Positions 2,351 through 42,583 of a stretch of DNA of 64,000 bases are shown one piece after another; position 1 is the stretch's first letter; every line of letters begins with the position of its first letter. The notes below the pieces were generated by a model, which saw nothing but the letters and a program-made list of their open reading frames with translations, ran no database searches and had not been told where the DNA came from. Made by a program: the position numbers and the translations under genes. Origin of the DNA: Labia minor (lineage: Eukaryota; Arthropoda; Insecta; Dermaptera; Spongiphoridae); NCBI GenBank assembly GCA_963082975.1, contig OY720345.1:26730611-26794610 (forward strand). The letters are read 5' to 3'.

Positions 2351-2843
2351 ATATGACTACGTAGATAAAATTTTATCTTTGTACTTGCAATAGGCACTGA
2401 GATACAGGGGGGTCAAAAGTGACTCCAAACCATTCGTGTAAATATACTTACGGCATGCGCGCGGCTTGCTGGAACTTGGCCGGCGCACTGCCGTGCGCAT
2501 AGATATAATAAGATATTTTGACCTACAAATAAAGCGGTAAAAAATCAACAATAAATAAATACCATCTAATTCGAATTTATATAAATAATATACAACTTAT
2601 TATACTAGCAAAATACATATATATATACGTATGTACACCTATATCCTGCTAAGGATTTTATTAGAATTCACACACTTGCATCCCAACAAATTCTTTTTTA
2701 ATTGATATTGAATTAATTATTTTTAGTATTTGAAATATTTTAAATTTTTTATAAAATTACAAATATTTATTTTAGCAATATTTTAAAATCAAATTACGAA
2801 ATATATCATTCGTTTCCCTCACAAAAAAAATAAGTTGACCTGT

Positions 2844-2857
2844 GGGGGGGGGGGGGG
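2844..2857 (+). repeat. G14 homopolymer
   Basis: Fourteen consecutive G residues replace the short GGCC tract found at the same point in the other repeat-A copies (20534, 44590). This is exceptional in such A+T-rich DNA and may be a sequencing or polymerase-slippage product. Confidence 0.9.
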
Positions 2858-2957
2858 CAGGCACAGAACCGACCGACAGTTTGATATATTAGGTCGAGTC
2901 ATAAATAACTTCCGTTTCTTATTCATACATTTATTTTTCGATAACACAAAAACAAAT

Positions 2958-2994
2958 AAAAACAATACCTCCCTTACTATCGTCGGTCGGTAAT
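2958..2994 (+). repeat. Repeat-A terminus embedded in the mariner
   Basis: A ~38-bp block (core CCTCCCTTACTATCGTCGGT) identical to 241-277 lies exactly where the transposase reading frame is cut off. It therefore marks the deletion or insertion junction inside the mariner element. Confidence 0.8.
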
Positions 2995-3294
2995 TAATCT
3001 AAAATGTATTCTAACAGTTGATTGGGATGTATTGAGCTTCTGTGATAACTCTAGTTGACTGGCGTGGATTTTCTTCCAAAACTGACTTCAAAACATCGTC
3101 ATCAAAGTCAGAAGGACGACCCATCCTTGGCTCGTCTTTTAAGGTCATGTCTCCAGAACGGAATTTTACAAACCAATTTCTTACTGCCCGAACAGTTATC
3201 ACTCCTTCACCATATACACTGCAAAGTTTTCGAGCTTGCCTTGTTTAAATTCCCAAAGCATCACATGTCGAAAGTGTATTTTTTGATTATCCAT
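2995..3294 (-). pseudogene. Mariner transposase N-terminal fragment
   Basis: Reading leftwards on the minus strand from the ATG at 3294, the frames spell a mariner N-terminus: a start resembling the 'QKIHFRHVMLWEF' helix, then RAVRNWFVKFRSGDMTLKDE and GRPSDFDDDVLKSVLEENPR, followed after a one-base shift by an LSQKLNTSQSTV helix. These are the two helix-turn-helix units that bind the terminal repeats. At least two frame breaks are present, a few codons are missing near residue 20, and the whole DDD catalytic domain is absent because repeat-A sequence follows directly. It is non-functional. Confidence 0.88.
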
Positions 3295-3712
3295 TTTAAA
3301 GGTATAAATAAAAAAATATTTACGTGCGCACCGAAACGAGGTTGTCTAGAGACTGACCAGTTTATACTTGCTAAGCGAAAACAAAAATCCCTTATCAAGG
3401 GGAATCTCATTGTGTACAAACAATACCAAAAGAAGCACACTACTTAGGCGGAAGTTATTTATGACTCGACCTAATAAATTAATTTCCAGCTACAGAAACA
3501 ATTTCAAATAATTTTAATATATCTATTAATGCAATAAAAACAGATATGGATATAACATAAATATTTTTAACTTTATTTTAAATATAATATATAATGAGGC
3601 GCTGGCTGTGACGTCATATAATTTTATATTAAGAAAAAACTAATGCAGATGATTTTTCCCGAGGATAAAACCAATACAAAGTTCGTGGAGATATATAAAA
3701 AAATCTTATGTA

Positions 3713-4638
3713 CAATTATAAATGAAAAAATATCATATATTACATATGAATATATGAACAATTATAAATAAAGATACTTTAAATATTATTTCTTAAAAGA
3801 AGATAATTGATTGATATTTTCTATTTACAAATATGGCTTAGTAGTATATAATTTATATCGTAATCTAAAATTGTTCTTATTTGAATGGAAAATGTAAATA
3901 TATACATATTATCTTTCTGTCTTTCTAATCTTGAAAATTATTATCGAGATAGAAATGGTGAGTTGTCTCTTTAGTACATGATTAAACTTAAATAATAATA
4001 GAATAATTTATATTATATATATTATTTTATATTAAAAGAGTATATATGGTAATATAATTTCATAATTTATATTATTAACCGAAATAATCCTTGGTCGAAA
4101 CAATCATTAAGCTATTCCTACTTTGACAAATATAAAACTGAAGCCTTCTAAGTATAATAAGATATATTTTATAGTTCATCGAGTAAATTTGAAATAGAAA
4201 TAGAGTTATTTTAATTAATTTGCATCATTTTATAGAAAACACATTTTTGATGTCTCATTCTTAGAAAACTCATTTAATAAATGTAATAAATAATTAAAAA
4301 ATTGTATAATTTTAAAATTTAAAGAAAGTATAAATTTGTTAAAAAAATGAAGCGATAAGTGCATTACATTCTAAATAATTTTATAATAATATTTAAATAA
4401 TAAAAATCAATAAAATATAAAAATTTATTCAAAGGTAAAATAATAAATTTATTCAATAAATAATTTTCATATTTATATATGTACTATTATTAATTATAGT
4501 TCTTGTTTATTTCTATTCCAAATTATTCTAAATTACTCCAATATTGTTAAAAACTCATTAATATTCATTATATATAAAATACACTTAATTAAACGTAATT
4601 TCGAACAGAATAAGAGTGGGGTGGAACACATATATATA
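3713..4638. other. A+T-rich DNA, no gene seen
   Basis: Low-complexity sequence with no coding, RNA or transposon signature that I can support, directly upstream of the tRNA gene. Confidence 0.5.
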
Positions 4639-4720
4639 GCAGTCGTGGCCGAGTGGTTAAGGCGTCTGACTAGAAATCAGATTCCCTCTGGGAGCGTAGG
4701 TTCGAATCCTACCGACTGCG
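4639..4720 (+). tRNA. tRNA-Ser (anticodon AGA)
   Basis: An 82-nt sequence folds as a type II (long variable arm) tRNA. Acceptor stem GCAGTCG pairs with CGACTGC, with discriminator G at 4720. The A box is TGGCCGAGTGG. The anticodon stem TCTGA/TCAGA encloses CTAGAAA, with AGA at 4672-4674. An extra arm CCCTCTGGGAG and B box GGTTCGAATCC follow. CCA is not encoded, as expected for a eukaryote, and a T-run (from 4725) ends transcription by RNA polymerase III. There is no intron. It reads UCU and, through inosine, other UCN codons. The 3' end of this tRNA matches the primer site of the LTR element at 36798-42579 with one mismatch. Confidence 0.97.
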
Positions 4721-4724
4721 ATCT

Positions 4725-4736
4725 ATTTTTTTTTTC
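4725..4736 (+). terminator. RNA polymerase III T-run terminator
   Basis: A run of more than ten T residues (one A near its start) begins five bases after the tRNA-Ser 3' end. Confidence 0.85.
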
Positions 4737-5469
4737 TTTATTGTACTTTAACAAAATTTAATCATTTATAAAAGTGAGTGCTGTGCAACTCATTTAATTT
4801 TTATATTTATATATCATAAAAGATATTTAATTTAATAAAAAAAATAATAATAAAAAAAATCTGGTTGCTATTCTATATATAAATATAAATTAGTAGATAT
4901 AAGTGAAATTTAATTAATTTAATTTTCTTTTATATAAATCCATAACAACTAATGAATTACCAGAGAGAAATTATCCATCCAGGATGTAAATAATTTAAAA
5001 TTTATTTTTTGTTTAATATTTGAGAAATTAAATTGTCTTATATTGAAAATAATAATAAATTCTGATATTATTAATTAGTTCTAATAATTATTATGATAAA
5101 TAATTAAGTTAAAATTTAATTTTGTTTTTTGAAAGTTTAATTTCTGATTAAGTAGATAAACTAAAAATATTTTTTCCCTTTTTTTTTTTTTTTTTTTTTT
5201 TTTTATTTTATTAAGATAAAAAAAACCTCACCTCTTACTTTTCAAAAAGTTATTTCACATGGTCAGCAAATGTATGATCTTGCAAACCTCTCAAATTCGT
5301 TGTTAATTCGTAGATTTCGTAATTGCACAGTATTAAAAATTTAAATAAATATTTTTATAAAAATATTAGAAATAAGTAAAATAATATCTTGTAAGTATAA
5401 TAATAAATTCTTACACGAATCAAAAGTCGTATTTGTAAATATATGTAATAAATTATATGATGGATACTT
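4737..5469. other. A+T-rich DNA with a long poly-T tract
   Basis: No gene is seen. A T-tract of more than 25 bases lies near 5178-5204 and could be the poly(A) tail of a minus-strand retroposed copy, but no matching body was recognised next to it. Confidence 0.45.
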
Positions 5470-6036
5470 ATGAATTATAATGTAATTCTTTTAATAATAA
5501 TAACTGGAAATGTCATCGTTGATGGGTATGCCAATCAGGCTAGATTAACTGGTGAATATCTCAACTTAGCTTTCCCTGTCTCGGACATTATGCCCTTTAT
5601 TAAAGAAGAAATATATAAAAAATGGCAACTTGATTGGAACCAATCATCAAAGACGAAAGGTAGTCATTTTCATTCATTGATGCCATTTATATATAGAAGA
5701 CCATGGTTTCACAATACAAACATTTATAGGAAAATTATTACTTTAATTCTAAGATTAAGATTCAATCATGCTACCACCCCACATAAACTTTATCTATTTA
5801 ACTTAAGAGAACATCCATTTTGTGATTGTAATAATGAAATAGTGGCAGATATAAATCATTTATTTTTGGGATGTAAAAAAAATAAAAAAGCAATTGACTC
5901 CCTTTATATAGATATTAAAAGTATAATTCAACTCCCTATAAACATCACTTGTATTCTATCTTATTTACAAAATAACTTTGAGTCTTTTAAAAAAATTTTT
6001 CTTAAATTCATTATTAAATCTAATATATTTATATAA
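5470..6036 (+). pseudogene. 3' end of an I/Jockey-type LINE ORF2
   Basis: The 188-residue frame is the C-terminal part of a LINE polyprotein. Residues ~14-30 (GNVIVDGYANQAR) resemble the end of an RNase H domain. The following region ends in a cysteine-histidine motif, CDCNNEIVADINHLFLGC (C-x-C ... H-x4-C), typical of the tail of I, R1 and LOA elements. Endonuclease and reverse transcriptase are missing, so the copy is 5'-truncated, the usual outcome of target-primed reverse transcription. The first methionine is simply the first in-frame ATG, not a natural start. The remaining frame is uninterrupted, so the insertion is fairly young. The exact clade is uncertain. Confidence 0.75.
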
Positions 6037-9908: not shown

Positions 9909-11768
9909 ATGGATCGTTGGCTACAAACTGGTTCAACACAGAAACGGAAAGAATCAGATGATGAGGCATCAACAGCAAACTCTACCAAGAAACGCAAAAC
10001 TAGAAAATATTCGGATGATTATTTATCATTTGGATTTACTTATATTTGCAACAATGATGTGGAAAGACCAGTCTGCGTTCTATGTCAGGAAAGTTTATCC
10101 AATGAAAGTATGAAACCTGCTAATCTCAGACGTCATTTACAAACAAAGCACAGCGAGCATGTTAGTAAGTCTATCGAATTTTTTAAAATGAAAAAAGAAG
10201 AACTTAATTCAAGTCAGAAATTGATGGTAAAGACGGGATCTGGTGGTATGAGTAAGAAAGCAGTAATGGCATCATATGAAGTAGCTCTACTTATTGCTAA
10301 AGCAGGAAAGCCGCATAATATAGCAGAGCAATTAATTCTTCCTGCTACAAAAGTAATTACAAATATAATGTTAGGAACTAAAGCAGCAAACGATATAAAT
10401 TTGATTTCATTATCAAATGATACGGTTAAGAATAGGATTGAAGACATGTCATGTAATATAAAAGAAGAATTAATATCGAGAGTGCGCAAAAGTCACTATT
10501 ACTCATTACAATTGGATGAAAGTACTGATGTCACTAATAATGCCAATTTGTTAGCTTTCATTAGATATGAGTTTGAAAATCAAATACAAGAAGATGTATT
10601 GTTTTGTGATTCACTACCTTCACGAACGACAGCTAATGACATATTTAACAGTTTGAATAATTTTATAACCGAAAATGAAATAGAGTGGCCAAAATGTGTT
10701 GGAATTTGCACTGATGGTGCTCGTGCAATGTCAGGTACAAGAACTGGATTGATTGCTCTTATTAAAAATGTTGCGCCTCAGGTTGTTTGGAATCATTGCT
10801 GCATTCACAGAGAATCATTAGCAGCCAAAAATATGTCACCAGATTTGAAAAGAACATTAGACGAAGTAGTTAAAATTGTCAATTTCATTAAGGCTCGTCC
10901 ACTTAATTCCAGAGTTTTTAAAATTTTGTGTGAGGAAATGGGTAGTCAACATACACATTTATTATTACATACAGATGTACGTTGGTTGTCCCGCGGGAAA
11001 GTACTCATTCGCCTTTTTGAGCTTCGAGATGAAATACGATTGTTTTTAATAGATGCGCATTTTGAACTGACCGAATGTTTCAATGATTTTATCTGGTTAG
11101 CTAAGGTGGCTTACTTGACTGATATTTTTACAAAATTGAACGAACTTAATTTGAGCCTGCAAGGTACTGTTGTAAATATATTTAAAGTTGAAGATAAAAT
11201 AGAAGCAATGATTAAAAAAATCGACTTGTGGTCGAAACGAATCCAGAACGGTGTATATGAGTCTTTTCCAACTCTCAATGATTTCATAGAAAGCTCCAGT
11301 GAAAAATTGCTTAATCAAACGCGTCAATTATTTGTTGAACATTTAATTACTTTGAAAAGCAACTTCAGGAAGTATTTTTCTACTCCTGATCCTTGCAATA
11401 ACTGGATCAGAGATCCATTTAATATGGAAATTACAAATGCTAAACATTTATCTGCACCTGAACAAGATATTCTCGTGGAATTATCATGTGATACAACTTA
11501 TAAACTAAAATTTAACAAAACTGAATTGAGCAACTTTTGGTTACTTCTCAGGTCAGATTATCCTGCGCTTGCAAATAAAGCACTTCAACACTTGATTCCA
11601 TTCTGCACAACATATTTATGCGAACAAGCTTTTTCGGTACTATTTTATATTAAGTCTAAATATAGAAACAAATTAAATGTAGAGCCGGATCTTAGATTAA
11701 AAGTTTCCAATATTAAGCCAGATATTGAGATTCTTGTTTCAAGAAAACAACTGCATACATCTCATTAA
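9909..11768 (+). CDS. hAT-family transposase with BED zinc finger
   Basis: The 619-residue frame is the DNA-cutting and strand-joining enzyme of the surrounding hAT element, related to ZBED5/SCAND3-like transposases. A lysine/arginine-rich stretch (residues ~10-40) may serve nuclear import. A BED finger follows: C-V-L-C near residue 60 and H-x4-H in LRRHLQTKHSEH near 82-88. The RNase H-like core shows LDESTDVTNNANLLAF (first Asp), CTDGARAMSGTRTG (second Asp) and WNHCCIHRESLAAK (the C-x2-H motif at the start of the inserted domain). The C-terminal dimerisation segment reads TYLCEQAFSVLFYIKSKYRN, whose Glu is the expected third catalytic residue. All hallmark residues are present and there is no internal stop, so the protein could be active. 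The first ATG of the frame gives a normal N-terminus. Overlapping frames on both strands are shadows. Confidence 0.95.
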   Translation: MDRWLQTGSTQKRKESDDEASTANSTKKRKTRKYSDDYLSFGFTYICNNDVERPVCVLCQESLSNESMKPANLRRHLQTKHSEHVSKSIEFFKMKKEELNSSQKLMVKTGSGGMSKKAVMASYEVALLIAKAGKPHNIAEQLILPATKVITNIMLGTKAANDINLISLSNDTVKNRIEDMSCNIKEELISRVRKSHYYSLQLDESTDVTNNANLLAFIRYEFENQIQEDVLFCDSLPSRTTANDIFNSLNNFITENEIEWPKCVGICTDGARAMSGTRTGLIALIKNVAPQVVWNHCCIHRESLAAKNMSPDLKRTLDEVVKIVNFIKARPLNSRVFKILCEEMGSQHTHLLLHTDVRWLSRGKVLIRLFELRDEIRLFLIDAHFELTECFNDFIWLAKVAYLTDIFTKLNELNLSLQGTVVNIFKVEDKIEAMIKKIDLWSKRIQNGVYESFPTLNDFIESSSEKLLNQTRQLFVEHLITLKSNFRKYFSTPDPCNNWIRDPFNMEITNAKHLSAPEQDILVELSCDTTYKLKFNKTELSNFWLLLRSDYPALANKALQHLIPFCTTYLCEQAFSVLFYIKSKYRNKLNVEPDLRLKVSNIKPDIEILVSRKQLHTSH

Positions 11769-30892: not shown

Positions 30893-31240
30893 TCTAAAGT
30901 TCAAAAATGCCAGAGGTTGAAATAACAGATTTTATTAAAACTAAAAAGTAATTTACATTATTAGTATAATATAGTGTAATATATAGTAGATAATAAAAGG
31001 TATATTTACCTAAAAAGTAATAATTAAATTACAAGTTATTTCTATTCAATTATGTAATAAATACAGGAATTTATATTTGACAAGATGACAGTTCAACTCT
31101 CTTATAGAAAATGAAATAGTTCTTACTATTAACACTTAGTCCAATGCGGTGGCTTCCTAAACTGGCGCTAGTTGTAAAAGTCAAATAGGGCGCCAGTTTA
31201 AAATATCAAATATACCAAGAACATATATTTGATATTTACA
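30893..31240 (-). repeat. G1 3' LTR
   Basis: In minus sense it begins TGTAAATATC and ends CTTTAGA. It holds two hairpins: a 14-bp stem at 31201-31214/31224-31237 close to the LTR start, and an 11-bp stem TAAACTGGCGC/GCGCCAGTTTA at 31158-31200. A sequence at 31022-31034 is complementary to the leader next to the 5' LTR. Confidence 0.95.
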
Positions 31241-31252
31241 CCTTCCCCCCTG
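31241..31252 (-). other. G1 polypurine tract
   Basis: Minus-strand CAGGGGGGAAGG abuts the 3' LTR. It is the expected primer for plus-strand DNA synthesis. Confidence 0.9.
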
Positions 31253-31255
31253 AGA

Positions 31256-34200
31256 TCATTTTTCGACCGAATACAATGATAGCTTGCTACTATGAAAGCA
31301 ATTTGAAATTTTTTTTCTTTTTCCGCAATTCACTTCATACATTGTTGGCGAAATCTTCTTTATTATTGTAAAAGGGCCGATTCTTACTGGATCTGTCTTC
31401 TTTCTGTTTAATTTGTTACCTTGCTCTATATACACTTGGTCTCCCGTCTTAAATTCGTAAATTTTTCTGGTTTTGTCGACACGTTTTTTATTTATGTGAA
31501 AATTCTTCATTGAGTTTTCAAATGCTTCTCTTCTATCTTTATTGAGGTCATGTTTTTTAAAAATCTCAACTGGACAAATAGATGATTGTTTTCCCATCAG
31601 TAAATATGCTGGTTCAAATTTAGTTGAACTATGTATTGTTTTGTTGTATTCTTCTGCGCATTTCTCAGCTATTTTCGACCATGCTCCTTTCATTCCACTA
31701 TTAATTTTGCATCTTATCCTATTTACCAGTGTTTGGTTTAATCTCTCGTTTAATCCATTTGATGTTGGGCAATCTATACTGGTGAATATTAATCTTATAT
31801 CTAGTCCTTTTAGATATTCCCTGAATTCTTTTGAATTTAATGCTGTATATTGGTCCGCTAATATGATTTTTATTTTGTTTTTTTCTTTGATTTTATCAAT
31901 GAGTTTCATGAACTCTTTTGCTTCTTGGCCTTTTGATGTCGATATCCATGCATACCTGGTAAAATGATCCACCAAAATGTGCATAAATTTCTTTGTTGAA
32001 TTATTCCCTCCGAAACCTCCTACTGTATCGATGGACATGATTTCATATGGTTCAACTGGTGGGCCAAGTTTTTGCATTAAGCCTATTGTTCTACTCCTCC
32101 TCGTCTTATTTTCTCTACATATTTTGCACTCTTCACAGAAGTCAGTTATTACTTTATCTAAGTTTTTAAAATAATAATTTGGTCTTATCTTTTCTTTTAG
32201 TTGTGCCACACCTATATGGCCGTAATATTCGTGGATTCTTTTTATTATTTCTGTTCCAAATTTTTTAGATACATAAATTCTTTTCCTTTCTTTTAAATTT
32301 TTATATATAACATTATTATGTTTTTCTATTCTTTTATCCGAGCTAATTTCTTCCTTGTTTTCCATTTGGTCTTTTACTATTTCGTTTAGTTCAATTAAGT
32401 TTACCACCTTTATTCCGTCTTCGTTTTCAAAATATTCCAAAACAGGTTGTCTAGACAATAAGTCCGCTAGAATATTTTCTTTCCCTTTTTTGTAAATAAT
32501 TCTGAAATTGAATTGAGATAAATAGTGTACTAGATCCCCTAAAATTTCATCGGTCCTTGATTTTGTTTTTAGGTTTTCTAATGGCTTATGATCGCTGCAC
32601 ACTATAAATTCTCGACCCATTAGGTAGTATTGCCAATATTTAATAGCTTCTTTAATAGCTTTACATTCTAGGTGGATTATATCCATTTTTTTTTCTTTCT
32701 CTGATAATTTCCTAGAGAAGTAAGCTACAGGATGCAGTCTTCCATCTTTTTGTGGTTGTTTTAATGCAGCCCCTAAGCCTTTCAAACTAGCATCTGTGTC
32801 AATGTATACCTCTTTTTCTGCATCGTAAATAGCTAGAATTGGTGAAGAGCATAAGTATTCTTTTATTAAATTAAAACTTTTTTCACATTCTTCTGTCCAG
32901 ACGAACTCTACATTTTTTTTTAACAATTTGTGTAATGGTTCAAATTTTTCTGCACTATTTTCTATATATTTTAGGTAAAAATTTATAGAACCTAATATAC
33001 TTCTTACACCAGTTTTATCTTTAGGTGTCTTTAGTTTCTTGATTGCAATAAGATTTTCTTGTGCCGGTGATATTTTGTCTTCTTGAATCAAGTGACCTAG
33101 ATATTTCACTGATTCTGTTCCAAATGTACACTTTTCTAATTTTATCTTGAATCCTTCCTTTTCCAGAGTTTGTAGGAGCTGTTGAATATGTTCTATATGA
33201 TCTTCCCATGTTCTCGAAAAAACTAACAAGTCATCTATGTAGTTAATACAATAATCGTCCAAATTGTTTTTTCTTAATATGCTTGATAAGATCCTTTGGA
33301 AAATTGCAGGTGCATTCTTATATCCAAAAGGAAGAACGTTAAACATAAATTTCCCGTATTTTGTTATAAATGCTGATTTCTCTCGATCTTCTTTTTTTAG
33401 TTGGATACACCAGAAAGCTGAATTTATATCAATCACACTAAAATATTTGCAATTTGGTACCTTTTCTATTATATCACTGATAGTGGGAAAGGGATAGCAC
33501 TCAGGGATAACTAAGCTATTCAGTCTCCTAAAATCTATACATAATCTAGTCTTCCGACCATCTTCTTTCTTGTATGCTAGTGTAACTGGAGATGCATATG
33601 GAGAGTCAGATTCTTCTATTAATTTTGCTTCTAATAGTTTCTTTATTTGTGTTTTTATTTCTAGTTCATCTGGTTTTGTACAATTGTATGCACGTGAAGT
33701 GATATATTCATCTCTTTTTAATCTAATTTCGGCCTCTCTTGATTTTACTTTTCCAACATCATATTTGTCTTTTGCACATATGTGTTTATATTTCTCTACT
33801 AATTTTAAAATTTGAATTTTCCTCTTTTTTTCTTTTACGTGTTCTATATTTACTTTTAATGAATTTCCATTTGTTTGTTCATTTAAATGAACTTCTGATT
33901 GGGTTTCTTTTTGTTTATTTTCATTTACTTTCTTATTTATTATCCCCTTTTCTAAGTCTAAATTCTTTTCTATATCTATTAATTTTTTTGTTTCATTATT
34001 TTTATCTTTTTGCCAGATGTCTAAATTTTCATCTTGAAGAAGCCTAAAACTTTTTATGGCATTTAATCCTAATAGTAAATCGTAAGAAAAGTTATTCTTT
34101 TTTATTACGTATACGTTTAATTTATTTGTAATATTTCCTATTTTTAGTGTTATATTTGCTCTGCCGGAAGAGAAGTTAAATCCATTGATCGTTTTGAAAG

Positions 34201-34369
34201 CACTTTTTTGTTTCAATAACGTTGTTTTTAAATTGTCAATAATTCTTTGATTTATTAGGCTCACATTTGATCCTGAATCATATACTCCTTTTATTTTCTT
34301 TTTTTTATCAATTATTACATTTATTTTTATCAATGGATTTAATCTTTCCGGCCTTACTCGTTTAAAGAT
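31256..34369 (-). CDS. pol: G1 Pol polyprotein (PR-RT-RNase H-integrase)
   Basis: The frame is open from 34369; the printed 1025-residue numbering starts at the TTG at 34333, and no ATG is needed because pol is probably entered by -1 frameshifting. The protease active site is VYDSGSNVSLI (Asp19). RT shows SVIDINSAF (Asp302), LPFGYKNAPAIFQ and the catalytic YIDD (365-368). RNase H has YIDTDAS (512/514), LECKAI (Glu556) and SDHKPLE (Asp581). Integrase has an N-terminal HHCC finger (H701, H706, C736, C739) and a DD35E core at Asp769, Asp827 and Glu863. No stop or gap occurs. All catalytic residues are present, so the enzyme set looks functional. Frames overlapping on the other strand are shadows. 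Confidence 0.96.
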   Translation of the reverse strand: MFKRVRPERLNPLIKINVIIDKKKKIKGVYDSGSNVSLINQRIIDNLKTTLLKQKSAFKTINGFNFSSGRANITLKIGNITNKLNVYVIKKNNFSYDLLLGLNAIKSFRLLQDENLDIWQKDKNNETKKLIDIEKNLDLEKGIINKKVNENKQKETQSEVHLNEQTNGNSLKVNIEHVKEKKRKIQILKLVEKYKHICAKDKYDVGKVKSREAEIRLKRDEYITSRAYNCTKPDELEIKTQIKKLLEAKLIEESDSPYASPVTLAYKKEDGRKTRLCIDFRRLNSLVIPECYPFPTISDIIEKVPNCKYFSVIDINSAFWCIQLKKEDREKSAFITKYGKFMFNVLPFGYKNAPAIFQRILSSILRKNNLDDYCINYIDDLLVFSRTWEDHIEHIQQLLQTLEKEGFKIKLEKCTFGTESVKYLGHLIQEDKISPAQENLIAIKKLKTPKDKTGVRSILGSINFYLKYIENSAEKFEPLHKLLKKNVEFVWTEECEKSFNLIKEYLCSSPILAIYDAEKEVYIDTDASLKGLGAALKQPQKDGRLHPVAYFSRKLSEKEKKMDIIHLECKAIKEAIKYWQYYLMGREFIVCSDHKPLENLKTKSRTDEILGDLVHYLSQFNFRIIYKKGKENILADLLSRQPVLEYFENEDGIKVVNLIELNEIVKDQMENKEEISSDKRIEKHNNVIYKNLKERKRIYVSKKFGTEIIKRIHEYYGHIGVAQLKEKIRPNYYFKNLDKVITDFCEECKICRENKTRRSRTIGLMQKLGPPVEPYEIMSIDTVGGFGGNNSTKKFMHILVDHFTRYAWISTSKGQEAKEFMKLIDKIKEKNKIKIILADQYTALNSKEFREYLKGLDIRLIFTSIDCPTSNGLNERLNQTLVNRIRCKINSGMKGAWSKIAEKCAEEYNKTIHSSTKFEPAYLLMGKQSSICPVEIFKKHDLNKDRREAFENSMKNFHINKKRVDKTRKIYEFKTGDQVYIEQGNKLNRKKTDPVRIGPFTIIKKISPTMYEVNCGKRKKISNCFHSSKLSLYSVEK

Positions 34370-34491
34370 TCATTATCCATTTCGATTTTTAATTCATCTA
34401 AATTTTCCTTTTTTTCATTAAGATTAACTTTTCCTATTTCCCTATAAAATTCTTTATTTCTACAGTAGTTTGGGTTGTGAAAAAGGTTTGG
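34354..34491 (-). other. Gag C-terminal extension in the -1 frame
   Basis: This frame is open between TAA stops at 34492-34494 and 34354-34356. It begins with the latter part of a zinc-knuckle-like motif (FHNPNYCRNKEF) similar to the HPSEICRNK end of the first knuckle, and it leads straight into the slip site. It therefore looks like the true end of gag, displaced by a one-base loss near 34485-34491. Confidence 0.75.
34360..34366 (-). promoter_or_regulatory. Candidate -1 ribosomal frameshift site TTTAAAC
   Basis: In the gag-extension frame the codons read TCT-TTA-AAC-GAG-TAA, so the heptamer T_TTA_AAC has exactly the phase required for tandem -1 slippage. A -1 shift enters the pol frame (CGA-GTA-AGG...), which opens just upstream at 34369. 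The two frames overlap for only 16 nt, and the slippery heptamer lies inside that window. Confidence 0.85.
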
Positions 34492-35618
34492 TTAGTATAA
34501 AAATTCTGACTATTTGCATTTCCGGGATTTATATGAGAAAGATTTTTATTCTGATTTACAGGAGTTAAATGTCTTTTTATTTTTTTTTCAACCTTTTCAA
34601 CTTCTACCTTATTTCTACAAATTTCAGAAGGATGAAACCGGTTTTCTAAACCTCGTGCTTCACAAATAGAACATGCTTTTATATTTTTATTTATTTGTGT
34701 GTTTTCATTATTTTCAAAATTTTTTTTAGTAAATTTACTATCTTTTTTTTGTAATTCTAACATAAGTTCATTTGTTGTTTTTATTTCAGATTTATCTAAT
34801 TCTTCTTGTATCTCTACAGGAAGTCCCATTAAAATAATATTTACTAATCTCTTTTCAGCTGAAATATCCTTTTCAGCCTCTAACACTAACCTTTCTTTTG
34901 CTAAGGCATATTCTAAAATAGATCCACCCAAATATTTGTAATTATAAGCTTTTTTTGTTGTTAACCAATCATCTTTTTTAAAAATATCAAAAAATGATGT
35001 TTTCCAAGAAAACCAATTTTCAAGGCCAATTTTAATTAAATTCGATGAATACCAATTTTCTGATGGACCAGTCATGAAGTATTTTAGTACTTCAATTTTT
35101 TTTCTTTCAGTTTGTATGGAAAATTTTTTACATGCATTTTCAAAATCGTCCATCCATATAATTGGATTTTGTTTTTCGAAATTCTCTAAATAAAATTTTT
35201 TACAAATCTCGTGGGTGTCCATATGGTTATTTTCATTTAATTTTTTTTCTAATTCTTTAAATTTATAAAAATAATAATTTTCATTTGACTCACATGGATC
35301 CATTAATTTTGTATTTTCCTGTTCCAATATTTCTTCAAGTGGTAAATCCTTGAAACAAATATTTCCGTCGTTGTCTATGTATTCTTCTTTGAGTTCTTCA
35401 TCCAATTTTAATTGGACATTTCTAAATCCACCACATGGTTTTATGGCCGATATAGCATTTTTGATGGAAGATTTTTTTATTAATATTTTGTGCTCTTTTA
35501 TATTTCTGAACTCTTCTGGAATAGAATACCAGTCGATTTTATTCTCCGACATCTTTGCAACTTCAAATTCATTCTCTCCTTTTTTTATTATATGGAAGAA
35601 AAAATTTTTATTTTCCAT
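34434..35618 (-). CDS. gag: G1 Gag (frame broken near its end)
   Basis: The 394-residue frame starts at the ATG 42 nt inside the 5' LTR. Residues 140-300 fit a retrotransposon capsid ('ENWYSSNLIKIGLENWFSW', 'LILEYALAKERLVLEAE'-type helices; 'LVNIILMGLP'). A zinc knuckle C316-x2-C319-x9-H329-x4-C334 should bind RNA. The apparent stop at 34434 follows a probable single-base loss in the CCAAACC stretch at 34485-34491, after which the residues no longer look like Gag. The -1 frame continues the zinc-finger-like sequence to the slip site. A real mutation and a consensus error in the A/C run are both possible. Confidence 0.9.
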   Translation of the reverse strand: MENKNFFFHIIKKGENEFEVAKMSENKIDWYSIPEEFRNIKEHKILIKKSSIKNAISAIKPCGGFRNVQLKLDEELKEEYIDNDGNICFKDLPLEEILEQENTKLMDPCESNENYYFYKFKELEKKLNENNHMDTHEICKKFYLENFEKQNPIIWMDDFENACKKFSIQTERKKIEVLKYFMTGPSENWYSSNLIKIGLENWFSWKTSFFDIFKKDDWLTTKKAYNYKYLGGSILEYALAKERLVLEAEKDISAEKRLVNIILMGLPVEIQEELDKSEIKTTNELMLELQKKDSKFTKKNFENNENTQINKNIKACSICEARGLENRFHPSEICRNKVEVEKVEKKIKRHLTPVNQNKNLSHINPGNANSQNFYTNQTFFTTQTTVEIKNFIGK

Positions 35619-35660
35619 TTTTTTATTTATTTTAAAAGAAATAAAATTTGTAATTTAATT
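35619..35660 (-). other. G1 leader with candidate self-priming site
   Basis: Immediately after the 5' LTR the minus strand reads AATTAAATTACAAATTTTAT. It has no TGG and no resemblance to a tRNA 3' end. Its first 13 nt are exactly complementary to an LTR segment (35790-35802 in the 5' LTR), and the pairing extends imperfectly to about 22 nt. This is the arrangement expected of Tf1-type self-primed reverse transcription. Confidence 0.6.
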
Positions 35661-36008
35661 TCTAAAGTTCAAAAATGCCAGAGGTTGAAATAACAGATTT
35701 TATTAAAACTAAAAAGTAATTTACATTATTAGTATAATATAGTGTAATATATAGTAGATAATAAAAGGTATATTTACCTAAAAAGTAATAATTAAATTAC
35801 AAGTTATTTCTATTCAATTATGTAATAAATACAGGAATTTATATTTGACAAGATGACAGTTCAACTCTCTTATAGAAAATGAAATAGTTCTTACTATTAA
35901 CACTTAGTCCAATGCGGTGGCTTCCTAAACTGGCGCTAGTTGTAAAAGTCAAATAGGGCGCCAGTTTAAAATATCAAATATACCAAGAACATATATTTGA
36001 TATTTACA
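35661..36008 (-). repeat. G1 5' LTR
   Basis: 348 bp, no difference seen from 30893-31240. The segment complementary to the leader lies at LTR positions ~207-219. About 30 nt upstream is an A+T-rich TATTTATTACATA that could serve as core promoter, which would place the complementary sequence at the start of the transcript. Confidence 0.95.
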
Positions 36009-36793: not shown

Positions 36794-36797
36794 TACA

Positions 36798-37501
36798 AGT
36801 TATGTGCTTACCTTCCTACTAGGATAGTAGGTAGTTAAAAGGTAACAATAAAAGGCGAATTTTTATAAAGAAGGAAATAGAAGTTTTATTTGTGAACTTG
36901 TTACAAAATCATACAAGGCCGAAAAGGTGTGTGTTGAGTTTCTTAAAACTAAAACTAAGAACTAAAGACTAGCAATTGAATCGTCTGCAATTTCTGCTCT
37001 CCATATATATATATTACTTGACTAGGGGGCGGGGGAGCTGAGGGGACACATGGAGGTTCGTAGAAGGGGCTGTGGGAAGAAAGTGTCTAGGTGGGTGATT
37101 TAAGACATTCATCTGGACGACACTTAGCCGTCTCTTGGTCATGACGTTAATTGCTAGCAGATATTAAATTAATTAGGTGGGTTGACATTTCTTGGGCTTT
37201 GTTCATCCCTATAATAACTTAAATCTAAAGAAAGGGTTAGGATGGACCATTCTTTGACCAGATGTTAGGTCGGGTCAGAATACACTAAATTACGAAGTTG
37301 ATTGACAGATAGTGGACCCTGTCAATCCCTATAATAACTTAAATCTAAAGAAAGGGTTAGGATGGACCATCCTTTGACCAGATGTTAGGTCGGGTCAGAA
37401 TACACTAAATTACGAAGTTGATTGACAGATAGTGGACCCTGTCAATCCCTATAATAACTTATTCTAGTTATGTGAGCACAAGTAGCCGTGGGAACATGAC
37501 A
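36798..37501 (-). repeat. E1 3' LTR
   Basis: 704 bp, identical in length and, on reading, in sequence to 41876-42579. It contains a 120-bp tandem duplication near its U3 start. Confidence 0.95.
37207..37446 (-). repeat. 120-bp tandem duplication in the LTR
   Basis: 37207-37326 and 37327-37446 differ by one base visible to me (CCATTCTTTG versus CCATCCTTTG). The same pair is in the other LTR, so the duplication predates this insertion. In U3 it may act as a repeated enhancer or insulator. Confidence 0.9.
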
Positions 37502-37515
37502 CCTCCACCCTCTAA
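37502..37515 (-). other. E1 polypurine tract
   Basis: Minus-strand AGAGGGTGGAGG abuts the 3' LTR. Confidence 0.88.
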
Positions 37516-37563
37516 GGAAATTTGTCCAACAAATTTTAGCGGGCGAAGTTAATCTGTCCACCT

Positions 37564-38511
37564 TCAGTGAATACATCCACATGTTTCGTTGGATGGTATG
37601 AATTGAATTTTATTATTTTCATTTAAACTGTTTTTTTCTTTACATGTCTCTTTGCTTGATATGAATCGAACCCTGCTATTTCCAACGAGACTGTTTTTTC
37701 TTACAAATAAGCGTTTCTTAAATGCTACTACAAATATTGTCACTATAATTAATACTAATATAATGATTGTAATAATTAACAATGTGGTTTTGTTTTCGTG
37801 AATTACTGATCCAATTTCCTCAATTTCTTTTAGCCTGGGGCTATCTATCTTAATTTCTTTAATACTATGCATAGTGATTTCTTTGCTTGTGTCTATTTTC
37901 CTAATATTTAAACTTAAATTGAGAATGGAAATTTCCGTATTGGACCTGTAAATCGTGTGAATCTTTCTATTGTTAATTATACATTCATTATTTACAATTT
38001 TATACAATCCTCTTGACAATGTTGTATTGACACTTTTACAATTAATTTTTACATTATTATTATCTATTACATTTATGATTACCACTTCACTGTTAGGGAT
38101 CACTAAAAACTGTGGGAAATGTTTTAGGGGGTGAGATTTACAATTTTTGCTGTTATTATCAATAACTAAGTTTCTTGTACAATTGCTTGCCTTCTCCTGG
38201 CTAACCTTACAATAGTATTTATTATTATTATTAATTATACAATTAGTTATTTTCTTTAAGTCTAAGTTATCTGCTACAATATATTGGAACGGTTCATTTA
38301 GTAGTACGAGTTGCCCTTCTTGGTATCTAGGTATGGGGGTGATTTGAATTATATTAGATTCTTTCTCGCTATAGTTCGGTATTTCGAGGACAATGTCAAT
38401 AATGTCATTATGGACTTTACAGAAAGGTCTGATGAATTTAGCTGCCTCCCAAAAGTCATTGATTTCAATATTAATTTTATATAGTTTGAGTAAATCGAGG
38501 AGGTAAGGAAT
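37564..38511 (-). CDS. env: E1 Env-like frame without ATG
   Basis: This 315-codon frame is open between stops from 38511 to 37564 and overlaps the end of ORF1 by about 30 nt. It has several N-x-S/T sites (NCT, NNS) and paired cysteines, IPRYQEGQLVLL-type sequence, and near the C-terminus one strong membrane span (LLIITIIILVLIIVTIFVVA) followed by a basic KKR cytoplasmic start. This is the layout of the membrane-anchored half of an errantivirus Env (baculovirus F-like family). There is no ATG in its first ~135 codons and no signal peptide in frame; errantivirus env is normally made from a spliced RNA that supplies the start. The surface half seems shortened. It cannot be called functional. Confidence 0.75.
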   Translation of the reverse strand: MPYLLDLLKLYKINIEINDFWEAAKFIRPFCKVHNDIIDIVLEIPNYSEKESNIIQITPIPRYQEGQLVLLNEPFQYIVADNLDLKKITNCIINNNNKYYCKVSQEKASNCTRNLVIDNNSKNCKSHPLKHFPQFLVIPNSEVVIINVIDNNNVKINCKSVNTTLSRGLYKIVNNECIINNRKIHTIYRSNTEISILNLSLNIRKIDTSKEITMHSIKEIKIDSPRLKEIEEIGSVIHENKTTLLIITIIILVLIIVTIFVVAFKKRLFVRKNSLVGNSRVRFISSKETCKEKNSLNENNKIQFIPSNETCGCIH

Positions 38512-40726
38512 TTATATAAAGTGACATCTGGGAGATTTGATTAATCAGATCCTGTATTGTCAAATAAAATTTTGTCCTCAAAATTATATTTAAATACATA
38601 TTCAATAATAATAATAATAAAGTTAAGGGAAAGGGAAAGGGTTTCATATACTCGGCTCCTGTATAGGTTGTTTGTGGTCCCTGCTCCTTACCTGACACTT
38701 CTACTTGATATCTATCATTTATAAATTTATTAATAACCCGATGAGGACCTAAATATTTCTGTTTAATTATTATATCAGATCCAAATTGTTTGTATTTGGT
38801 AGCCTTTCGATATCTTTTCCAATTATATATTCGAATTTCTTCATGAAATTTTAATATTTGCTCTTTCCTACTTTTTCTTAATTCTTCTCTCTCGTTATCG
38901 AATTGTTTTATCAATTCCTTTCCTATTAATTCACGCATATGCATATCTTTTTCGTTTTTCATTTTAACTTCTAATAAAACTTCGAAGGGTATCATGTCGA
39001 TTGTTCTTTGATGGGTATTATTTATTGCTTGCTGCCCATCTTCGACTTTTTTATATTTTTGTAAAATGCCGATTTTATCATTTAAATCTTTTAAGTCTGT
39101 TTCTTTTGCTGTTAATTGAGAACATATTTGTGATTTTTTTCTTTTAGGATTTTCTAAACCATCAATTAAAGAAACTAATTGTTTTTCTTTATCATAATCG
39201 GAGGATTTAGTAATAATTATTTCTTTTTTTATTTTATTTATTTTGGTATTTAAATTATCAATTTCTTTTTTCCGTTCTTCTAATAAACATAAATTATTTT
39301 GTAAATCATCCCTTAATTTATTGGAGGTTTTCATTTCATTATTCAATTTCTCTTCTAATAATTTTTTCTCTTCATTGGAAATCTCTGATTTAAGTTTTAA
39401 TTCATCGTCTTTAGATTTTAGAAACAATTCCATTTCATTTAAATTTTCATTCAAAGAATTATTTTCCAGTCCTACATCTTCCAATTGCACTTGTAAAGAT
39501 AAATCATTGTCATATAATTTTTTAGAATCATTTTCTTTACCATGTCTACTAGGTATGTTTATAATAGACTCCTCTTCGTTGTTTAATATTAACAAGATCT
39601 CTGTTGATTCATTTTTTATTTCACTTGGATTAATAATTTCTAGATCTTTATCTTTTGAGTTAATATTAATTTTATTTCTTTCATCTCGTTGTAATTTTTC
39701 TAGTTTAATCGAATTATTTTCTATTTGAATAGGAATTATATTATCAATTTTTTGATTAATTAAATTTACACTTTCTTTTTTTAAATTCTCGCTATTAATT
39801 TGGGTTTTTATATCTAAAAAATTATTCTGTTCGTCCCTAATGTTGTTAAATTCATGAATGTTCATTCTAGATCGGTCAGAACGAGCGTTTCTTGATCTAG
39901 TCGTTTGAATAGTCATAGGGGTGGAAGGGGGATAAAAATTTTGTTGTTGGTTGCCGAACCAGGGGGGGTGGCTGTGGTGAGGGTTATGTTGGCGATTTCC
40001 ATTGTTTCTAAATTGGGGGGGTTGGTTAAAATTTGGTGAGTTGAATTGGTTAAAGAAGCCTTGTGAATTGTGGTGGCGGGGAGGGGGGTGGTAATTTTGA
40101 TAATAATTATTATGATAGGAGTGACTCCTGGGGGCGAATTGTCTAGGCCTCTGCTGTCCATTGGAATTGTAATTATTGACATTGTTCTCCCTACTTAATA
40201 GACTGGTTTTATTCGATAAGTAACTAAAAACTTCATTGATTGTTTTGAAACTTTGCGCTATAATTTGCGATCTTTCTGGCTCCGGGAGAGACCTAACGAA
40301 AATGTTAACAGCATCCGTTTCGAAATGCCTTTTGGCCACATCCTTGCCACTGGAGGTTTCATTTGACGCGTTGATGCGCGCTGCGAATTTTCCGATAAGC
40401 TCCTGAATTTTTTTATACCTATCTATAATTTTGGCTCGAGACCTCTCCATGTCATAAAGTTCGCGGCGGAGGGTGCTCTCATCTTTTGTTTCTAAAAATA
40501 AGTCATTAAGCACTTTTCTCAGATCTTCCCAAATGGTCAGACTAACGTGAGTTAATAATTCGTCGGCTTGGCCTTGAATTTTATTCCTAACAAACAAAAG
40601 GAGGAATTGATGGTGGTCGTGGGAGATACCTCTATAAACCGCATCAACTGTACTGATAAACCTTTCCAATTTATTTGAGTCGCCCGTGAAAATGGGGATA
40701 CAATTTAATAAATCACTTACATTCAT
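38477..40726 (-). CDS. E1 ORF1: Gag + coiled coil + integrase tail fusion
   Basis: 749 residues, uninterrupted, starting at the first ATG after the leader (MNVSDLLNCIPIFTGD). Residues 1-180 are a gypsy/errantivirus-type Gag capsid. Residues 181-295 are rich in Asn, His, Gln and Pro and likely flexible or RNA-binding, and no zinc knuckle is present. Residues ~300-565 are highly charged, Lys/Glu/Asn/Leu-rich and predicted coiled coil (for example LLEEKLNNEMKTSNKLRDDL). I do not recognise their family. Residues ~566-696 are the last part of a gypsy integrase (NNTHQRTIDMIPFEVLL; FLGPH-type 'KYLGPHRVINKF'; NDRYQVEVSG...TTYTGAEYMKPF). Residues 697-723 are hydrophobic. No protease, RT or RNase H motif occurs. 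The continuous frame through three unrelated parts implies a translated fusion under selection or a very recent origin. Confidence 0.85.
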   Translation of the reverse strand: MNVSDLLNCIPIFTGDSNKLERFISTVDAVYRGISHDHHQFLLLFVRNKIQGQADELLTHVSLTIWEDLRKVLNDLFLETKDESTLRRELYDMERSRAKIIDRYKKIQELIGKFAARINASNETSSGKDVAKRHFETDAVNIFVRSLPEPERSQIIAQSFKTINEVFSYLSNKTSLLSRENNVNNYNSNGQQRPRQFAPRSHSYHNNYYQNYHPPPRHHNSQGFFNQFNSPNFNQPPQFRNNGNRQHNPHHSHPPWFGNQQQNFYPPSTPMTIQTTRSRNARSDRSRMNIHEFNNIRDEQNNFLDIKTQINSENLKKESVNLINQKIDNIIPIQIENNSIKLEKLQRDERNKININSKDKDLEIINPSEIKNESTEILLILNNEEESIINIPSRHGKENDSKKLYDNDLSLQVQLEDVGLENNSLNENLNEMELFLKSKDDELKLKSEISNEEKKLLEEKLNNEMKTSNKLRDDLQNNLCLLEERKKEIDNLNTKINKIKKEIIITKSSDYDKEKQLVSLIDGLENPKRKKSQICSQLTAKETDLKDLNDKIGILQKYKKVEDGQQAINNTHQRTIDMIPFEVLLEVKMKNEKDMHMRELIGKELIKQFDNEREELRKSRKEQILKFHEEIRIYNWKRYRKATKYKQFGSDIIIKQKYLGPHRVINKFINDRYQVEVSGKEQGPQTTYTGAEYMKPFPFPLTLLLLLLNMYLNIILRTKFYLTIQDLINQISQMSLYINSLPPRFTQTI

Positions 40727-41861
40727 TTTTGAAGCTTAGATTATTTTATTTTTACTATAATTTTTAATTATTTTATTTTATTTTAATTGTTTGTTTATTA
40801 TTATTAATTATTTAGCTATTTATTATATTTATTTTTTATTAATAATTCAATTTTAATTTTTATTTATTTTTATATTTTAAATTATTTTATTTAATTTCAA
40901 TTTTTAATTAATTATTATTTCTTTTATTTAGTTAGTTATTCACTGTTATTTTAATTAATTATTCAATTATTATTTATTATTACAATTCAATCAATTATTT
41001 AATTTTTTTTTTTTTTTTTTTTTATTTCTTTATTTTATTCCTAACTTTTTCACGAGGTTTGGTCGCATTAATGGATCAAACTTCCTCGGAGTATCTTTAT
41101 TATTGTTAATTACGTTATATTCCTGAGATACAGCTGCGTAAAAATGACCGCTCCTTCTCAGATTTATTATTAACTAACTATTCAAAGATTATTTTATTAT
41201 TTAATTATTTCAATCAATTCACTTTTATTATTCTATTTTAATTAATTATTTAGTTTAATATCATTTATTTATTTTTCATTATTTAATTATTATTTTCCTT
41301 TATTTAATTATTATTTTCCTTTATTTAATTATTATTTTCCTTTATTTAATTATTATTTTTCTTTATTTAATTATTATTTTCTTTATTTAATTATTATATT
41401 TAATTGGCAATTTATTATTATATTTTTTTTTTTTATTTTAATTAATTTAAAAATTATTTAATTGTTAAAATTTTTATTTATAATTTTGATTTTATTTATT
41501 TAAATTTAGGCTTAATTAATTTTGGTGTATGATTGTTTATATGGCTCACGTTTTTTTCTTCTTTTCCTTCCTTGATGACTGCGCCCTTCGGAGAGATGAT
41601 AACCGCTCCTAGTATTTATAGGTGACCTGGGATTATTTGCTTGAACCGCTCCTCGTTAAGGCAGTGGACGTCGCTTTCCTCAGTGTCGTGTAGTCGTGGT
41701 AGGCTCGTAAGCTCGCGGTGACTTCTCCTGCTTCTTGATAGCTGAAGACGATGATCAGACGCCGTCAGTTGATCGGGAGATTGAAGCAAGATGTTGAAGT
41801 TTTAACACCGTTCGCGATAAAACTTAGAAAAGTTTACGTAAAATATTACGTTCGCGAAAAA
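40727..41861 (-). other. E1 5' leader
   Basis: A long untranslated stretch between primer site and ORF1. The part next to the primer site (about 41530-41860) has complex sequence with repeated GGAGCGGT motifs. The ORF-proximal part is extremely A+T-rich with poly-T tracts (41000-41023) and a tandem array. It probably holds packaging and splice-donor signals, which I cannot place. Confidence 0.6.
41276..41401 (+). repeat. 21-bp tandem array in the E1 leader
   Basis: Five to six copies of a unit TTTATTTAATTATTATTTTC with small changes. Confidence 0.85.
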
Positions 41862-41876
41862 ATACCGACTGTGCCA
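41862..41876 (-). other. E1 primer-binding site (tRNA-Ser type)
   Basis: Minus-strand TGGCACAGTCGGTA starts at the last LTR base. It pairs with the 3' end of tRNA-Ser as encoded at 4639-4720 plus CCA, with one mismatch in 14. tRNA-Ser priming is known for several errantiviruses. Confidence 0.82.
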
Positions 41877-42579
41877 GTTATGTGCTTACCTTCCTACTAG
41901 GATAGTAGGTAGTTAAAAGGTAACAATAAAAGGCGAATTTTTATAAAGAAGGAAATAGAAGTTTTATTTGTGAACTTGTTACAAAATCATACAAGGCCGA
42001 AAAGGTGTGTGTTGAGTTTCTTAAAACTAAAACTAAGAACTAAAGACTAGCAATTGAATCGTCTGCAATTTCTGCTCTCCATATATATATATTACTTGAC
42101 TAGGGGGCGGGGGAGCTGAGGGGACACATGGAGGTTCGTAGAAGGGGCTGTGGGAAGAAAGTGTCTAGGTGGGTGATTTAAGACATTCATCTGGACGACA
42201 CTTAGCCGTCTCTTGGTCATGACGTTAATTGCTAGCAGATATTAAATTAATTAGGTGGGTTGACATTTCTTGGGCTTTGTTCATCCCTATAATAACTTAA
42301 ATCTAAAGAAAGGGTTAGGATGGACCATTCTTTGACCAGATGTTAGGTCGGGTCAGAATACACTAAATTACGAAGTTGATTGACAGATAGTGGACCCTGT
42401 CAATCCCTATAATAACTTAAATCTAAAGAAAGGGTTAGGATGGACCATCCTTTGACCAGATGTTAGGTCGGGTCAGAATACACTAAATTACGAAGTTGAT
42501 TGACAGATAGTGGACCCTGTCAATCCCTATAATAACTTATTCTAGTTATGTGAGCACAAGTAGCCGTGGGAACATGACA
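41876..42579 (-). repeat. E1 5' LTR
   Basis: 704 bp; see the 3' LTR. Flanked on the outside by TACA (42580-42583). Confidence 0.95.
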
Positions 42580-42583
42580 TACA

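Follow-up and report, generated by a model that had tools for sequence, protein, structure and literature searches.

An errantivirus-like element of Labia minor with a mosaic Gag fusion frame and a probable host CLIP-170/190 coiled-coil piece

The element and its fusion frame

The stretch analysed here (the window) comprises 64,000 nucleotides of the genome of Labia minor (Dermaptera; assembly GCA_963082975.1, contig OY720345.1, forward-strand positions 26,730,611 to 26,794,610). It holds a long terminal repeat (LTR) element of 5782 bp on the minus strand, at window 36798-42579, whose two 704-bp LTRs are identical over the full 704 bp. Inside it a single frame of 749 codons joins Gag to a coiled-coil piece and the tail of an integrase. 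A sequence-only reading of the window, made by a model, had described this frame as an errantivirus-type Gag fused to captured foreign coding sequence in a recently mobilised element that had lost its enzymes. The frame proved exact, the identical LTRs, primer site and purine tract were all confirmed, with TACA on both flanks, and the N-terminal Gag could be assigned to an errantivirus-like parent by comparison with three relatives (L021-L023). In the order in which the element is read, and with the other loci compared below (L026, L036 and L037), its features are as follows.

42580..42583, no strand: target-site duplication TACA, one flank (sequence reading)
41876..42579, minus: 5' LTR, 704 bp, equal to the 3' LTR; 99.3-99.7% identical to the LTRs of L021-L023
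41864..41876, minus: primer binding site TGGCACAGTCGGT, first base overlapping the LTR; the same in 7 of 8 other sampled copies
40727..41875, minus: A+T-rich 5' leader with a 21-bp tandem array, common to L021-L023
38477..40726, minus: whole fusion frame, 749 codons, exact; stop-free in 40 copies
39812..40726, minus: Gag segment, residues 1-305, errantivirus-like parent
39809..39814, no strand: 5' recombination junction from Gag to L026-type middle, approximate; the same in each of the 20 copies examined, with a single-base variant in one
39437..39811, minus: residues 306-430, L026-type middle, 94.9% DNA identity to L026; no heptad periodicity
39050..39441, minus: match to the CLIP-170/190 coiled-coil exon, residues ~430-560; 349 of 393 nucleotides identical to the C6 exon in L037
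38633..39049, minus: C-terminal tail of integrase with the end of its core, CCHC-Gag Ty3/gypsy side; 95.2% DNA identity to L026, protein alignment to the L036 integrase frame
38560..38618, minus: edge of the L026-type 3' region, with the 3' junction directly after it (comparison with relatives)
37564..38511, minus: Env remnant, open for 315 codons, N-terminal part missing; same frame as the L021 third frame
37502..37515, minus: polypurine tract TTAGAGGGTGGAGG (sequence reading)
36798..37501, minus: 3' LTR, 704 bp, identical to the 5' LTR
36794..36797, no strand: target-site duplication TACA, opposite flank (sequence reading)

The primer site TGGCACAGTCGGT is putatively tRNA-Ser-like. The tandem array of the leader consists of ~21-bp units at window 41248-41425, and each LTR contains a direct repeat with 120-bp spacing (window 37177-37461 and 42255-42539) that the L021 LTRs have too. 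The Env remnant, which overlaps the end of the 749-codon frame and had been overlooked in the sequence-only reading, gives no Pfam match.

No protease, reverse transcriptase (RT), RNase H or integrase core was detected by Pfam in the fusion frame, in line with the claimed loss of the enzymes; two matches fell below the cut-off (Virulence_fact, E 0.014; Retrotrans_gag, E 0.39). An errantivirus has its own protease, RT, RNase H and integrase. This element lacks them, and it is therefore a non-autonomous derivative rather than a complete errantivirus member.

The part after Gag had been described as some 265 residues of coiled coil. Residues 431-560 do show a clear 3.5-residue periodicity (1 of 1000 shuffles equally strong), but residues 306-430 do not (0.713 of shuffles equally strong), so that only the second part of the description stands. 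Gag residues 1-300, which are helical, are periodic as well (0.002; 2 of 1000 shuffles), and the measure therefore marks helices generally and proves little alone. A single-sequence fold was of low confidence (mean pLDDT, the predicted local distance difference test, 38.9) and was used for no conclusion.

Two element families contribute to the mosaic

From position 1 to ~2770 (LTR, leader and Gag) the window element is 95.6-95.9% identical to L021-L023, and from 4076 to 5782 it is 99.1-99.5% identical to them, with different sequence between. All three have an open frame of 313 codons, one of 1162 and a third (513, 551 and 306 codons, respectively), and their LTR pairs are identical. The pol of L021 has Pfam matches to RVT_1, RNase H, H2C2 and rve, and its third frame has none; we read this frame as Env, and the element as errantivirus-like, by position and hydrophobic end. 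By way of L021-L023, the Gag, leader and LTRs of the window element are those of a Ty3/gypsy element with an env-like frame after pol, as in errantiviruses. Relatives with the same LTRs and Gag, and with pol kept, had been predicted; with open frames and identical LTR pairs, L021-L023 are possible sources of enzymes for the window element. Divergence from the Gag of L021 is uneven, with 3 nucleotide differences in residues 1-180 versus 37 in the rest of the compared part, and Gag itself is therefore somewhat mosaic.

The middle (element 2771-3947) aligns with L026 at 95.6% identity. L026 belongs to a different LTR family and has a Retrotrans_gag domain and a CCHC knuckle. In L036, the sequence of which was taken without its 3' end, matches to Gag, protease, RT, RNase H and integrase are spread over two frames. 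L026 is 97.7% identical to L036 before, and 97.9% after, a 1040-bp segment (L026 3898-4937) that L036 lacks; being otherwise ~98% alike, L026 is therefore itself a defective derivative. The integrase tail that the sequence-only reading had recognised is present, but it matches this CCHC-Gag Ty3/gypsy element and not the errantivirus-like parent. Its last 140 nucleotides are 92.9% identical to L036 and the earlier part is diverged, hinting at the involvement of yet another element. Alignment to the few relatives read shows the window element to be a mosaic, with LTRs, leader, Gag and Env remnant errantivirus-like, and middle and integrase tail of the L026 type.

A host CLIP-170/190 exon matches the coiled coil

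Element 3139-3530 (residues ~430-560) is identical at 349 of 393 nucleotides (89%) to an exon on contig C6. On the same strand, within ~11 kb, two CAP-Gly matches lie upstream of this exon (E 5e-29 and 1.7e-10) and a CLIP1_ZNF zinc knuckle downstream (E 3.8e-9), which together identify the gene as a CLIP-170/190 gene; non-coding gaps, apparently introns, separate its coding blocks. The window element matches L037, which contains the exon, only over the CLIP piece and short A+T-rich stretches. The proposed search for a host gene thus succeeded through this genome match and not at the protein level, where residues 300-620 found nothing at E<=0.01, an absence that says little as length and number restricted the candidates. 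Neither the CLIP exon nor the zinc knuckle found anything at E<=0.01 in PDB sequence searches.

The idea of a foreign capture is supported by the exon, but the errantivirus-like element need not be the captor, because the piece is shared with L026: it has ~95-97% DNA identity between the two elements and the same neighbouring pieces in both. Judged by these identities, a host coding piece is present in two element families and amplified in one of them.

Copies of the fusion and recent movement

The genome itself (604 Mb in 71 contigs) was searched with the fusion frame, the best candidates being scored, so that counts are lower bounds. At least 61 matches were found. Counting other copies had been suggested as a check, and at least 40 copies, the window included, span residues 1-749 without a stop (88-100% identity), spread over several contigs; 39 of these, the window among them, are at 96-100% and one is at 88%. 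Four further loci carry the frame split in two pieces, and the remaining matches are partial, mostly to the Gag of relatives.

Eight other copies were sampled. Seven have their own LTR pair, with 0-1 mismatch in ~702 bp, and their own matching 4-bp duplication, an errantivirus feature that the window copy displays as TACA; the eighth (C5:30.5M, 88% identity) has no LTR at the expected place. These low mismatch counts and separate duplications support recent movement of the element, as had been claimed. Both junctions are shared, the 5' junction by all 20 copies examined and the 3' junction by 19 of them (in the twentieth it was not located), which points to a single founding event for the chimera. 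An assembly chimera or a single pseudogene, for which no supporting point was found, has a negligible chance of explaining the locus: 40 full-length open copies lie on several contigs, and seven of the eight sampled have their own duplications. The assembly chimera, named in the sequence-only reading as a possible refutation, was rejected on copy count and target duplications.

A girdin piece in a second series of Gag fusions

A search with the L026 frame gave 93 matches, including other single-frame elements. Three were read, L034 (833 codons), L035 (752 codons) and L038 (915 codons), whose LTR pairs differ by 1 base and one gap, by 2 bases and by 2 bases, respectively. In L034, residues 440-775 match girdin, the cockroach protein being 49% identical over 94% (E 1e-67), and the cargo is colinear with that protein over ~325 residues. 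Among the best 120 of 212 matches (E<=0.01) in a protein search with this cargo, those with specific names were girdin, Daple, CCDC88A and hook or HOOK-domain proteins, while the other names were generic, three being 'chromosome segregation ATPase'. A PDB search gave one weak match (E 0.011), to a GCN4/M-protein chimera.

The host girdin gene lies on contig C9. Thirteen matches to the cargo comprise 9 element copies and 4 in the host gene, and nine copies of the L034 family have open frames of 829-833 codons. Aligned to C9, the cargo falls into six exon blocks with 944 of 946 nucleotides identical, counted up to the 3' junction; all five GT-AG introns (66-867 nucleotides) are absent, and no mismatch lies within 15 nucleotides of a join. 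Because the introns are missing, the source was RNA, and on this alignment the girdin cargo is a recent capture from spliced RNA. Short similar stretches are found at either end of the insert.

L034 and L038 have the same backbone (97%), in which different inserts occupy one site. In L038 (2004-4748) an acidic segment occupies the site that in L034 (981-3479) holds the girdin coiled coil; the L038 insert is charged and non-heptad. L035 (932-3187, 752 codons) has Gag and CCHC matches; what follows we read as protease-like sequence, a charged helical segment and an end resembling an integrase tail. Other matches to the L026-frame search have frames similar in length to that of L035. Outside this genome, the caddisfly Arctopsyche grandis has a protein of 609 residues, P0017, in which CCHC knuckles and a charged segment occur together with a weak match, below the threshold, to an integrase-tail SH3; P0001 and P0002 (source 'ena') have a Gag-like start and a charged segment, then an RT remnant below the cut-off. 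The latter two may resemble Rab11-FIP/Nuf.

At least three other element frames (L034, L035 and L038) with Gag and a charged segment could suggest that the elements have long encoded the coiled coil themselves and that the host CLIP similarity reflects an element copy inserted in a host gene. We consider this very improbable. The C6 exon sits in a gene with CAP-Gly domains, a CLIP1 zinc knuckle and apparent introns; the match of the window element to L037 is confined to the CLIP piece and short A+T-rich stretches; and the L034 cargo follows cockroach girdin colinearly. The sequence-only reading had held that a complete relative with the coiled coil naturally within Gag would refute capture; among the few relatives read, L021-L023 and L036 are without the domain.

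Proposed origin and role of the fusion

The reading that we favour, with a probability of roughly 0.78, is that of a defective errantivirus-like element that combines its own Gag with an L026-type middle including the CLIP-170/190 piece, likely captured from RNA and joined by template switching, and that would be moved in trans. In a first step, RT copying packaged element RNA would jump to a spliced host mRNA packaged with it and later return, the jumps presumably occurring at short homologies and the host sequence replacing pol. The missing introns show the RNA source for girdin, and a similar source may be supposed for CLIP. RNA of the CLIP-bearing element would then be co-packaged with errantivirus-like RNA, and two further switches would give the chimera, founded once; the mosaic is evident from the alignments, and we infer the mechanism and the direction of transfer. 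Third, the Gag, RT and integrase of relatives would package, copy and insert the chimera. It keeps the LTRs, leader, primer site and purine tract, and the N-terminal half of its Gag is hardly altered, so that the relatives' machinery could act on it, and movement in trans by enzyme-bearing relatives of the same genome is likely. In the last and weakest step, the fusion Gag would enter the relatives' particles, where the coiled coil might aid oligomerisation, tie particles to the cytoskeleton like its parent protein, or merely be an open spacer.

Several observations weigh against this reading. In twenty of the 40 full-length copies (window included), 55 variants change an amino acid, 18 are silent and none is a stop; the ratio of the first two is that expected from mutation alone (omega ~0.97, p=0.51), so that the substitutions look neutral and give no sign of selection on the fusion protein. 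The whole CLIP piece falls inside a single exon and so spans no intron position, and residues 306-430 have no assigned source beyond L026. The order of events, with CLIP entering the L026 lineage first, would be the simplest reading, and the helper action is a predicted one.

Neither the five segments nor the whole frame departed significantly from neutrality in these 20 copies; Gag had the lowest ratio (~0.61, p=0.15). The chance of zero stops among the 73 variants is 0.023 by the same count, which is weak evidence because similarity to the window decided the ranking of the copies and favours unbroken ones. As the 20 are those nearest to the window in protein, the selection test is biased and weak, and tandem repeats make the number of variable non-coding columns too high. 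Between the window element and the host CLIP exon the ratio of non-synonymous to synonymous substitution rates (dN/dS) is 0.34, a value that the host branch alone could cause; comparison of the window element with L026 gives 0.42 in the CLIP piece and 1.07 in residues 306-430.

A neutral ratio also fits the view that the coiled coil is passive filler. A long open sequence in place of pol would evade nonsense-mediated decay and keep the element near packaging length, and host pieces that are open over a long stretch, such as coiled coils, would simply survive. We regard this as a serious contender, at somewhat less than even odds. The charged, non-heptad insert of L038 on the L034 backbone and the non-heptad residues 306-430 agree with it, whereas both identified cargoes are coiled coils of cytoskeleton-linked proteins, and caddisfly P0017 likewise has CCHC knuckles and a charged segment, with a weak integrase-tail match; the cargoes and P0017 were all reached from a coiled-coil-containing query, and this sample is biased. 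A broader proposal, that insect LTR elements repeatedly trade their enzymes for coiled coils of host cytoskeletal adaptors (CLIP-190, girdin), that the hybrid Gags steer or rebuild helper particles and that the module passes between families, we hold to be doubtful. The capsid of Cer1, a Ty3/gypsy element of Caenorhabditis elegans, is described in a passage of PMC3315495 as able to associate with microtubules, and that a CLIP or girdin coiled coil serves as a microtubule handle for Gag is a guess.

Other features of the window

A second Ty3/gypsy element adjoins the first, at window 30893-36008 on the minus strand, with repeats at 30893-31240 and 35661-36008, a 394-codon frame without a Pfam match and a pol frame of 1025 codons that matches RT, RNase H and integrase. 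A 619-codon frame at window 9909-11768 on the plus strand has sub-threshold hAT dimerisation and BED zinc-finger matches and is likely a relative of hAT transposases.

Comparison with known systems

With an open Gag, LTRs, primer site and purine tract but no pol, the window element resembles TR-GAG and other plant gag-only elements, which likewise have LTRs and Gag without enzymes. Unlike the window element, these are not known to carry host cargo, and the cargo falls outside the definition of the TR-GAG type. The gag-onc transducing retroviruses likewise have Gag fused to spliced host coding sequence, have lost pol and need a helper; here, by contrast, the elements are endogenous, errantivirus-like and Ty3/gypsy, the cargo is no oncogene and it is shared between families. 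LTR-mediated retroposition by template switching was reportedly described in metazoans by Tan et al. 2016. It yields gene retrocopies, whereas the present case is an amplified family with a Gag fusion; the making of host-gene retrocopies by LTR machinery in metazoans is mentioned in PMC5408686.

The nearest known case is Bs1 of maize, an LTR element described in passages of PMC7264820, PMC5408686 and PMC13317346 as having host-gene pieces in a hybrid frame, the cargo being from proton ATPase, xylan endohydrolase and glucanase genes. Host-derived coding sequence inside an LTR element is likewise what we find (the CLIP exon, and girdin in L034), and these matches show host-gene capture by LTR elements at the sequence level in this genome. 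Transduced extra frames sit in one or a few copies, according to the abstract of PMC7264820. Unlike the plant Bs1 as described there, the present elements are from an insect, number at least 40 and 9 copies, have the order Gag, coiled coil and integrase tail, and carry one cargo in two families. Word matching of titles and abstract openings in the open-licence literature found no animal family with Gag-coiled-coil capture, and within that scope the new part is the animal Gag-coiled-coil series together with the hand-over between element families. One animal genome presents several stages of capture, namely a fresh girdin without introns, a more diverged CLIP-190 and a piece in two families. 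They pose the question of whether cytoskeletal coiled coils are kept for a benefit to Gag particles, and through them a transduction route for which retroviral oncogenes and maize Bs1 have been the main examples becomes directly datable.
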